Source: Chryseobacterium sp. StRB126 (GTDB lineage Bacteria; Bacteroidota; Bacteroidia; Flavobacteriales; Weeksellaceae). Taken from it: 64,000 bases of DNA. Below the pieces are notes generated by a model. That model made no database searches and was not told the origin of the DNA. It saw nothing but the letters and a program-made list of their open reading frames with translations. Position 1 is the stretch's first letter, and every line of letters begins with the position of its first letter. The stretch covers positions 248,001-312,000 of the forward strand of contig NZ_AP014624.1 of the NCBI RefSeq assembly GCF_000829375.1. Direction: 5' to 3'. Shown here one piece after another: positions 41,409 through 43,355 of the stretch. A program made the translations under genes and the position numbers.

Positions 41409-42434
41409 ATGACTTCTGAAAACGCAAATCGATTTTTTGAAAGCCAATTAGGCAAAAAATCCACTGAATTCATCACATTAGCTCAAAGCGGTTCTGCTAG
41501 GGTCAACTTTCTGGCCATAACCGATACTGAAAAATACATCATCACCTACAATGAGAACCTTCCGGAAAATGAAAGTTTTCTTTATTATTCCGAGCTATTT
41601 TCTGCACTTAACCTGAATACACCTGCCATTCTTGCGATCTCAGAAGACAGGAAAATGTATGTACAGGAATTTTTAGGGGCAAAAACTTTATCGGAGGTAA
41701 TTACAAAAGAACATGTATCACCTCACGTAAAATCTTTGGTAAAGCAAACCCTTGAAAAACTTTTCAGATTACAGATCCAGACACAGGATAAAATTGATTT
41801 TTCCAAAACATTTGAATACGAAATTTATGATGAACTTCCGGTGATTCATGATCTGTATTATTTTAAAAACTTTGTGGCTGATGTTCTGGAGCTGGAATAT
41901 AATAAATCTACCTTACTGAAAGAATTTAAAAAAATTGCAGCATTGGTAGAGAACCTTGAACCTAAAGGTATCATGATTCGGGATTTTCAGGCCAGAAACA
42001 TCATGGTTAATGAAAAAGATGAAGTTTCATTTATTGATTATCAATCGGCAATGAAAGGCCCTTTGATGTACGATGTCATTTCATTTCTGTTTCAAGCCAA
42101 AGCCAATTTCCCTGAAAGCTTTAAAAATGAAATGCTGGATTTTTACATCCAACTCTTTGAAGATCAAAAAACTCAGCTTCAACTAAAAGATTCAGTTAAG
42201 CCAATACAGATGATGAGATTCCTTCAAGTCTTAGGAGCATACGGCTTTAGGGGATTAATTCAAAGGAAGCAACATTTTATAGCAAGCCTTGAAAAGGGAA
42301 TCCAAAATATCACAGAATTTGCCTCATCCTGGGAGAATATGAAAAACTATCCGGAGCTTAGCAAAGTCATAGAACAGTTGTCTTCTTCTAAAACAGAACA
42401 GAAGATTAAAGAAATATTAAATTTGAACCATTAA
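41409..42434 (+). CDS. AmgK-like amino-sugar kinase (aminoglycoside phosphotransferase fold)
   Basis: A 341-residue protein-kinase-like phosphotransferase. N-lobe with SGSARVNFLAITDTEKYIITYN; hinge and P-loop equivalents at the start; catalytic loop IRDFQARNIMV with Asp192 and Asn197, and metal-binding Asp210 in FIDYQSAMKGPLMYDVISFLF. This is the form of AmgK, the anomeric MurNAc/GlcNAc kinase of peptidoglycan recycling. The MurU-like gene 1 kb downstream supports this reading. Its final codons (LNLNH-stop) fall inside a repeat that flanks the GxxExxY gene, so its C-terminus may have been changed by an insertion. It is the first gene of the operon. Confidence 0.82.
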   Translation: MTSENANRFFESQLGKKSTEFITLAQSGSARVNFLAITDTEKYIITYNENLPENESFLYYSELFSALNLNTPAILAISEDRKMYVQEFLGAKTLSEVITKEHVSPHVKSLVKQTLEKLFRLQIQTQDKIDFSKTFEYEIYDELPVIHDLYYFKNFVADVLELEYNKSTLLKEFKKIAALVENLEPKGIMIRDFQARNIMVNEKDEVSFIDYQSAMKGPLMYDVISFLFQAKANFPESFKNEMLDFYIQLFEDQKTQLQLKDSVKPIQMMRFLQVLGAYGFRGLIQRKQHFIASLEKGIQNITEFASSWENMKNYPELSKVIEQLSSSKTEQKIKEILNLNH

Positions 42435-42464
42435 GCTGCTTTAAGGTTTTAAGAATATTAAGAG
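42426..42464 (+). repeat. Left imperfect inverted repeat of the GxxExxY cassette
   Basis: Begins AACCATTAAG and goes on with TTTAAGG/TTTTAAG words at about 9-10-nt spacing. The first 9 bases cover the last codons and stop of the AmgK-like gene. Pairs in inverted orientation with 42884-42926. Confidence 0.7.
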
Positions 42465-42465
42465 A

Positions 42466-42870
42466 ATGACCAAAAAAGAAATTACACAGCTATCATCTGA
42501 AATTACTGGCTTTGCTATTAAAGTCCATAAAATTCTTGGTCCGGGTCTTCTTGAAAGCGTTTATGAAGAATGTTTAAAAATTGAGCTCCTTAAAAATGGT
42601 TATAATGTTCAACAACAATTAGTAACCTCTATTAATTATGAAGGAGTTGAAATTGAAACAAACCTTATTGTAGATTTGCTTGTTAATGATACTCTTATTA
42701 TAGAATTAAAAGCTGTAGAAGAGTTACTACCGATTCATGAAGCCCAACTACTCACTTATATGAAAGTTCTTAAAAAGCCACAAGGATTATTAATTAACTT
42801 TTTCACCAACAACATTACAAAGTCATTAAAACCATTTATCAATGAATATTTCAGGGAACTTCCTGACTAA
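42466..42870 (+). CDS. GxxExxY family protein
   Basis: A 134-residue protein. The family name motif is visible as GPGLLESVYEE (G-P-G-L-x-E-x-x-Y), followed by LKIELLKNGY, the central VDLLVNDTLIIELKAVEEL (acidic-Lys pattern of PD-(D/E)XK-like nucleases, Asp-x(n)-Glu-x-Lys) and HEAQLLTYMKVLKKPQGLLINF. The fold is nuclease-like but no activity is established. It is bounded by imperfect inverted repeats and lies inside an operon where it has no obvious job, so it looks like an inserted cassette. A short palindrome at 42871-42888 directly follows the stop. Confidence 0.88.
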   Translation: MTKKEITQLSSEITGFAIKVHKILGPGLLESVYEECLKIELLKNGYNVQQQLVTSINYEGVEIETNLIVDLLVNDTLIIELKAVEELLPIHEAQLLTYMKVLKKPQGLLINFFTNNITKSLKPFINEYFRELPD

Positions 42871-42888
42871 ATTTTGATTTATCAAAAT
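42871..42888 (+). repeat. Palindrome after the GxxExxY stop codon
   Basis: ATTTTGAT-TT-ATCAAAAT, an 8-bp perfect stem. No T-run follows, so it is not a convincing terminator; it could be part of the repeat element. Confidence 0.55.
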
Positions 42889-42926
42889 CTTAACTTACCT
42901 TAAAAACTTAAAATACCTTAATGGTT
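42884..42926 (-). repeat. Right imperfect inverted repeat of the GxxExxY cassette
   Basis: On the minus strand it begins AACCATTAAG, identical to the first ten bases of the left copy, then continues with TTTTAAG and TTTTTAAG words. It ends 21 nt before the next ATG. Confidence 0.7.
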
Positions 42927-42947
42927 TAAAATAAAATAAAGAAGAAA

Positions 42948-43355
42948 ATGCTACACATAGACATACACAGTTTTTCGTATAAAAAAGGAGGAATCCCTAA
43001 AGACAATTCAGGAAACGGAGGAGGTTTTGCTTTTGACTGCAGAGGAATTTTAAATCCCGGAAGAGTTGAAGAATATAAAACTCAAACCGGAAATGACATC
43101 GGCGTTCAGGAATATCTAGAAACCCAAACTGAAATGCCAAAGTTCTTAGAGCTCATAAAATCTCTTGTATCTATCAATATTGACAATTACCTGGAAAGAG
43201 GATTTGAAAACCTTCAGATCAATTTCGGATGTACTGGCGGGCAGCACAGATCTGTTTATTCTGCGATAAAAATCGCTGAATTCATCAGAGAAAAATACCC
43301 TAACGGAACTCTGATAACGATTCATCACGACGAACAACCACAACTGAATCAATAA
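42948..43355 (+). CDS. Stand-alone RapZ C-terminal domain protein
   Basis: A 135-residue protein equal to the C-terminal domain of RapZ, without the N-terminal P-loop kinase-like domain. Conserved: FAFDCRGILNPGR (Asp30, Cys31, Arg32) and FGCTGGQHRSVYSA (residues 93-105). In E. coli this domain binds glucosamine-6-phosphate and the sRNAs GlmY/GlmZ, controlling amino-sugar synthesis. Between an AmgK-like kinase and a MurU-like uridylyltransferase it probably senses or handles a phosphorylated amino sugar. Without the cassette the gene would start about 20 nt after the kinase, a normal operon spacing. Confidence 0.87.
   Translation: MLHIDIHSFSYKKGGIPKDNSGNGGGFAFDCRGILNPGRVEEYKTQTGNDIGVQEYLETQTEMPKFLELIKSLVSINIDNYLERGFENLQINFGCTGGQHRSVYSAIKIAEFIREKYPNGTLITIHHDEQPQLNQ

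Follow-up and report, generated by a model that had tools for sequence, protein, structure and literature searches.

Can one small gene framed by short repeated words amount to a mobile element? The question is raised by a locus of Chryseobacterium sp. StRB126, in a stretch of 64,000 nt (the window) that is part of the single contig (NZ_AP014624.1) of a 5.5 Mb genome. There a gene of a kind common in Bacteroidota and annotated merely as 'GxxExxY protein' lies between a kinase-like and a RapZ-like gene, enclosed by inverted repeats. A preliminary description made from the window's letters had taken the arrangement for a small mobile element. Comparison with a genus set (taken as Chryseobacterium) and a phylum set (taken as Bacteroidota) leads us to regard the GxxExxY cassette as likely, if by no means certainly, a minimal single-gene mobile cassette. 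The gene and its arms form a unit that recurs at unrelated sites. Most cassettes have neighbours on both sides that run in the same direction, and they often sit at the stop codon of the preceding gene, for which an arm is able to provide a new one. Decay leaves the arms alone, and gene-less elements whose arms are those of a different GxxExxY element are dispersed in the same genus. 'Mobile' describes the class over evolutionary time, because the copy in the window is not a recent insertion.

The window element and its protein

The features of the locus are as follows.

41409..42434, + strand: kinase-like gene (APH fold, AmgK-like; PF01636), last two codons and stop inside the left arm
42426..42926, no strand: whole element, 501 bp, AACC...GGTT, delimited by a repeat finder and by junctions that are arm-less (L055, 13-nt gap) or decayed
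42426..42462, + strand: left arm, AACC and then TTAAG words at 42431, 42441, 42449 and 42458
42432..42434, + strand: TAA that stops the kinase gene, contributed by the left arm's first word (the same theme recurs at hemE)
42466..42870, + strand: GxxExxY gene, 134 aa, PD-(D/E)XK nuclease fold (E30, D70, E80-x-K82, Q94xxxY98)
42871..42888, no strand: small perfect palindrome ATTTTGAT-TT-ATCAAAAT within the element
42889..42926, - strand: right arm, inverted, TTAAG words at mirrored offsets 5, 15, 23 and 33
42927..42929, + strand: TAA immediately after the right arm (compare L055)
42948..43355, + strand: downstream gene, RapZ C-terminal-like domain

The cassette lies where the preliminary description had placed it: the repeat finder returned arms at 42417-42453 and 42899-42935 (37 nt, 81% complementary), and the inverted ends of the element are AACCATTAAG...CTTAATGGTT. 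TTAAG words stand in both arms at offsets 5, 15, 23 and 32/33 (spacings 10, 8 and 9/10); the letters between the words differ between the two arms, the words match. Nine further intact copies of this amgK element, compared without L084, have their words at offsets 5, 15/16, 23/24 and 32-34 in both arms, with the variants TTTAG or TTAGG at some positions. In L084 the kinase reading frame is broken. Eight of 10 intact copies preserve the palindrome between the stop codon and the right arm; in L076 and L077 it is changed.

The kinase ends ...AAT TTG AAC CAT TAA, hence its last two codons and stop are within the left arm, as had been claimed. Given the TAA at 42927 and the RapZ start at 42948, a kinase freed of the segment would end 18 nt before RapZ, close to the distance of about 20 nt estimated earlier, and this TAA is probably the displaced original kinase stop. 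The name AmgK expresses likeness only, since the kinase scores 53.9 against the AmgK model, far below the cut-off of 550.

In profile searches the GxxExxY gene product matches PF13366 (2.2e-37; 128.4 bits, cut-off 22) and TIGR04256 (1.8e-39; 134.7 bits, cut-off 35). Pfam matching returned PF13366 alone and no HUH/Y1 transposase. Nuclease-like motifs had been mentioned beforehand for GxxExxY proteins, and the motif residues are conserved: E30, D70, E80, K82 and Q94 do not vary in a set of 14 diverse sequences or in one of 59, and Y98 is nearly invariant among the 14 and invariant among the 59. We take E, D, ExK and QxxxY to be the motifs of PD-(D/E)XK nucleases of the QxxxY type. Judged by these motifs and by a fold assignment that draws partly on a predicted structure model, the protein is a Cas4-like PD-(D/E)XK nuclease with predicted nuclease activity. 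Motif residues and fold are shared with Cas4 and RecB-type PD-(D/E)XK nucleases and with Hjc resolvases, unlike which it is a free 134-aa protein in a repeat cassette. A Cas4-type Fe-S site needs four cysteines, and is therefore not possible in this protein, which has a single one.

Sequence searches of the PDB gave no relative, the one match having an E value of 0.49. A known defence gene was rejected as an identity, the search giving only weak Cas4 matches (5.6e-4). An origin as a plasmid or phage gene was likewise rejected: the window's protein was matched in 8 of 72,556 plasmid records and in none of 50,697 phage records, and PHROG matches were weak (best 0.029). Of 21 IMG/VR stretches from a single scan with a single pattern, none was confirmed as a relative.

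Paired flanks and unrelated sites

The family occurs in 39 of the 80 sampled phylum genomes and in 54 of the 59 genus genomes. From the phylum we took 115 loci, leaving out 16 fragmentary matches and 4 others; four loci had too little flank, which leaves 111, and one place is counted twice (L100/L150). Each locus was scored by local alignment of the 300 nt upstream with the reverse complement of the 300 nt downstream. A score of at least 18 was reached by 70 of the 111, while mismatched pairs did so in 7.7% of 2220 cases and displaced windows in 5.5% of 218; for at least 25 the figures were 40 of 111 and 0.5% in either control. PF01042, a family of comparable size used as control (30 loci taken, 2 dropped), gave 3/28 and 0/28 (Fisher 4e-7 and 3e-5). 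In the strain's own genome AACCATTAAG occurs 47 times and forms four convergent pairs within 700 bp where 0.066 are expected, with no divergent pair; their pairing thus exceeds chance. From the flank scores, these pairs and the dispersed arm word described below, a chance origin of the paired flanks was rejected.

The arms are periodic, at about 9 nt (match rate 0.365 vs 0.276). Their words, for example CCACAGAG, CGCAAAG, CACAGATT and CATTAAG, are alike at the two ends of one element and usually different between elements, and, as far as sequence comparison can tell, they track the protein sequence. Arm similarity rises with protein identity at unrelated sites (Mantel r 0.295; null standard deviation 0.014, maximum 0.05 of 999), flank homology having been checked for pairs with at least 55% protein identity. 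Pairs with unlike flanks include L180/L191 (79%), L105/L126 (79%), L101/L119 (74%) and L087/L088 (71%). One partner of the second pair (L105 = L381) is at the hemE-hemN junction and the other (L126 = L380) elsewhere. Likewise, genus sites 6 and 7 have elements of 80% identity with common CTCGCAGATT arms and different neighbours. At genus site 0 (L001) a clear inverted repeat, AAACGCAAAGTTTT...AAAACTTTGCGTTT, lies entirely upstream of the GxxExxY gene, not around it.

These data bear on the possibility that repeats resembling repetitive extragenic palindromes (REPs) or terminators are moved by another enzyme, and that two of them often happen to enclose a GxxExxY gene with some other role. That the arm word follows the protein at unrelated sites, and that the word period differs by gene family (9 vs 7 nt, see below), speaks against such a passenger role. 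It agrees with the gene-less elements dispersed in genomes lacking the cognate gene, with terminator-like AGCCATTAAG/CTTAATGGCT hairpins in the genus, and with the similar flanks of another gene family, the four-helix-bundle genes. We consider this explanation improbable.

Co-directionality with both neighbours was found for 84 of the 100 genus loci placed among the matches listed, and for 76 of the 99 phylum loci having both neighbours assigned. The corresponding PF01042 control (4/26 co-directional on both sides) is unreliable: its open reading frame (ORF) calls are crude and opposite-strand neighbours are oddly frequent in it. An automatic rule places the upstream stop at the left arm or within it for 26 of 58 loci, a rough figure because arm edges from local alignment are approximate.

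Filled, decayed and exchanged junctions

Kinase relatives were found at 50 loci, 46 of them with a RapZ neighbour; with the window this gives 47 amgK-rapZ junctions, which we classified by reading their sequences. Eleven hold intact elements and 4 elements with internal deletions; arms alone are left in 7, the right arm alone in 17 and a remnant of the left arm in 4, and the remaining 4 are without arm. In one of the last (L055) the gap is 13 nt and the kinase has its own stop. This one junction thus occurs filled, decayed and arm-less; the preliminary description had proposed to look for an empty site. On the host tree the intact elements are spread over separate branches (8 changes). The copy in the window is old: between the window and L061 the four-fold-site divergence of the nuclease gene is 0.48, that of its neighbours 0.51 and 0.52, and protein identity is 0.96, from which long residence at this site and purifying selection follow. 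Recent insertion was therefore rejected. All placed genus copies of the window's element are at the amgK-rapZ junction. Within the genus, GxxExxY sites are old, mostly vertically inherited and often decaying.

Thus, of the proposed mobile element, the own ends, the related elements at unrelated sites and the gene-less copies stand, and recent insertion does not. Presence at the same place in related genomes, named in advance as evidence to the contrary, was partly found within the genus, and it is outweighed by the other sites, the empty junctions and the gene-less copies.

An element-less allele with shared derived sequence is interleaved with the element alleles on the host tree (5 changes; a single clade is rejected, approximately unbiased (AU) test p 4e-5), which indicates allele exchange or old polymorphism and does not distinguish homing from ordinary recombination. 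This allele carries a GTCTTCGGCTCCGCTCAGACTGACAG-like repeat in L052, L053, L054, L057, L059, L060 and L062.

Further junctions were followed, with neighbours named by Pfam and GxxExxY frames checked. Among 30 FAH-flavin reductase loci, 12 hold CCACAAAAG-type elements (gene whole in 8, in two pieces in 3, without start in 1), 7 a different GxxExxY element with other arms and 52-60% identity (5 whole, 1 split, 1 fragment), and 11 none. The second element was seen in L331, L332, L334, L342, L344 and L349, versus L320, L321 and others; in further species this junction has a palindromic repeat, GCTTCGAC...GTCGAAGC. At the thioesterase-dehydrogenase junction (30 loci) the gene is present in 11 (2 split) and absent from 19, several of the latter having the right arm only and two having gaps of 33-34 nt.

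The hemE-hemN junction (30 loci, 2 without hemE in reach) holds five GxxExxY elements, whole in L410, L431 and L436, split in L423 and without its end in L419, and a decayed one in L422. Six loci have four-helix-bundle elements (five called as ORFs, one of these confirmed as PF05635, and the sixth by eye), and one more has a decayed element of this kind. Neither gene is present in 15, some with arm-like remnants; the gap in L425 is 12 nt. In genus g34, G035 (gene broken) and G194 have GxxExxY, G196 has a four-helix-bundle gene, and G197 has nothing. Here, too, the host gene obtains its stop codon from the element, as had been suggested for the kinase: the hemE stop is replaced by arm in L423 and L431 (CAC CGC TAA) and in L419 (CAC CAC TGA), and L410 has a short read-through tail.

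Patchy occupation, reuse of the same junctions and the interspersed element-less allele are what would be expected if the gene encoded a free-standing homing endonuclease, which would cut empty junctions and have the cassette copied in by recombination, with arms that are left over from the target or were selected around it. Unrelated junctions nevertheless hold related elements that share their arms, the exchange of alleles could reflect normal recombination or a long-standing polymorphism, and element divergence is not clearly below that of the neighbours, hence we think homing quite unlikely, more so than the passenger role.

Gene-less elements, a parallel class and known systems

The FAH-flavin reductase GxxExxY element is bounded by the 18-nt arm word CCACAAAAGTCACAAAAG, with 478-482 bp between the ends in 12/12 cases. 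This word occurs 399 times, in 51 of the 59 genus genomes, with up to 30 copies per genome and 14 in the strain's own; a reversed control word had 0 occurrences across all 59. From the matches listed we fetched 20 places, choosing convergent pairs first. Thirteen were convergent pairs forming elements of 132-201 bp, mostly with related interiors, too short for the gene; the other seven were single or same-strand words. Flanks of gene-less copies are TTAA-like and could be repeat or duplication, the ends being ambiguous by 1-3 nt. In L505, L507, L508 and L509 the interior resembles arm sequence of the second element at the FAH site (AACACTTTAG, joined in two cases by CTAAAGTGT), which gives a nested look, as if one element were inside another.

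Dispersed gene-less repeats were thus found for CCACAAAAG; for the window's own AACCATTAAG arms there is one good gene-less copy, in the own genome. The four AACCATTAAG pairs there are the window element, L440 (four word positions in both arms, one word altered per arm) and two that match mainly at the outer word. That L440, at a HAD junction, is a decayed GxxExxY element was considered and not confirmed (0/30 loci). Terminator-like hairpins of the genus, AGCCATTAAG...CTTAATGGCTTTT or AACCATTAAG...CTTAATGGTTTTT (L446, L447, L449, L456), also carry the outer word, which is therefore present in probable terminators as well.

We infer that the nuclease acts on the arms and mobilises its own cassette. 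Transcribed together with the host operon, it would bind the word arrays at both ends and cut DNA there or at the target; cutting could lead to copying to new places, rarely of the cassette and more often of the gene-less elements, much as the REP-associated tyrosine transposases (RAYTs) may do for REP doublets forming hairpins (REPINs). The arm word would then be a recognition code evolving with the protein.

Several observations weigh against the idea of a mobile cassette. Flank scores are under 18 in 41 of the 111 loci; the 100 placed genus loci fall into at most 13 sites, one of which is probably the same as another (87% protein identity); and many placed gene copies are broken. The number of CCACAAAAG words per genome shows only a weak link with the cognate gene (mean 8.8 in 16 verified genomes and 6.0 in 43 others, p 0.042; p 0.0024 with seven unverified genomes added), and genomes without this gene can hold many copies (27 in G095). 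At the L440 site the GxxExxY gene was found in none of the 30 loci, the own one included. No target duplication could be defined beyond the ambiguity of 1-3 nt, no insertion event was caught in the act, and four-helix-bundle genes have a similar architecture without a nuclease.

Inverted flanks were found in 12 of 29 loci of these four-helix-bundle (PF05635) genes, and in 7 of 29 at a score of at least 25 (control 3/28 and 0/28; Fisher 0.015 and 0.010). Their arm period is 7 nt (match rates 0.426 at 7 and 0.451 at 14, vs 0.276 and 0.256). Cassettes of this kind within protein operons were seen in L411, L412, L417, L421 and L424 (hemE-hemN) and in L290-L319. Two unrelated proteins with one architecture, each with its own word period, fit recognition of the arms by the encoded protein. 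Four-helix-bundle proteins belong to the intervening sequences (IVS) of 23S rRNA, and PMC4990558 mentions that a requirement of the ORF for mobility was proposed long ago.

The likeness to IVS also suggests an RNA-processing role of the arms, the main rival explanation: they would pair in the mRNA and be cut by RNase III, which would take the cassette out of the transcript and so leave the operon unharmed, with the protein as cargo or helper. A predicted RNA fold indeed pairs both arms around the gene, four-helix-bundle genes occupy the same hemE-hemN junction, and the Coxiella IVS (PMC4990558) is similar in size, has terminal inverted repeats and is excised by RNase III. The overall fold has, however, a z of only -1.48, equalled by 8 of 100 shuffles; in the amgK element it is the words that match between the arms and not the spacers; and the dispersed gene-less copies and word arrays are left unexplained. 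We regard an RNA-level cassette as unlikely, though less so than the other alternatives. As the same paper describes them, 23S rRNA IVS resemble the GxxExxY element in having about 430-500 bp, one ORF without known function, terminal inverted repeats and a scattered occurrence. They differ in place, the GxxExxY element lying between protein genes (kinase, RapZ-like) and not in 23S rRNA, in protein (S23/four-helix-bundle, not nuclease fold) and in ends (a near-perfect stem, not word arrays).

Returning to the mobile cassette, its closest analogue is the RAYT/REPIN system, in which repeat and protein evolve jointly and RAYTs are mainly vertically inherited. The GxxExxY gene, too, lies between two inverted repeats of one kind. 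According to PMC2817692, RAYT/REPIN systems likewise have one small gene between two inverted repeats and the same repeats dispersed gene-less, and trees of both repeat and protein have been built. The GxxExxY cassette is not a member of that system because its protein is unrelated, being PD-(D/E)XK and Cas4-like and not HUH/Y1; its ends are arrays of 8-11-nt words and not GC-rich palindromes, and the strain's own genome has six diverse copies, mostly at operon-like junctions. The gene-less elements of 132-201 bp, with inverted ends and many per genome, resemble miniature inverted-repeat transposable elements, unlike which they have no transposase found with these ends; GxxExxY was the only gene seen between them, and no general search for other genes was made.

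Tentatively, and with somewhat less confidence than for the cassette itself, we propose a new class of bacterial mobile elements: a lone Cas4-like nuclease might read arrays of 8-11-nt words, coevolve with them, spread into stop-codon junctions and sustain gene-less elements, with a parallel four-helix-bundle class that uses 7-nt words and links both to IVS. In one library of open-access papers, preprints being outside its scope, we found no description of GxxExxY cassettes and no role for GxxExxY proteins. If the proposal is true, a single account covers many hypothetical genes and intergenic repeats, a nuclease fold familiar mainly from defence and repair is the sole protein of a mobile element that drives an undescribed kind of repeat, and the movement of IVS-like elements becomes testable on ordinary operons.

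Outside Bacteroidota four plasmid-borne loci were examined. The flanks of the Fusobacteriota locus have nothing clear, those of Sphingomonas and Treponema have short or one-sided traces, and those of the Gemmatimonadota locus have clear word arrays. Near the GxxExxY gene of Gemmatirosa (L226) two word arrays form a hairpin-like pair, GAACCGCAGAGGACGCAGAGG...CCTCTGCGTCCTCTGCGGTTC.
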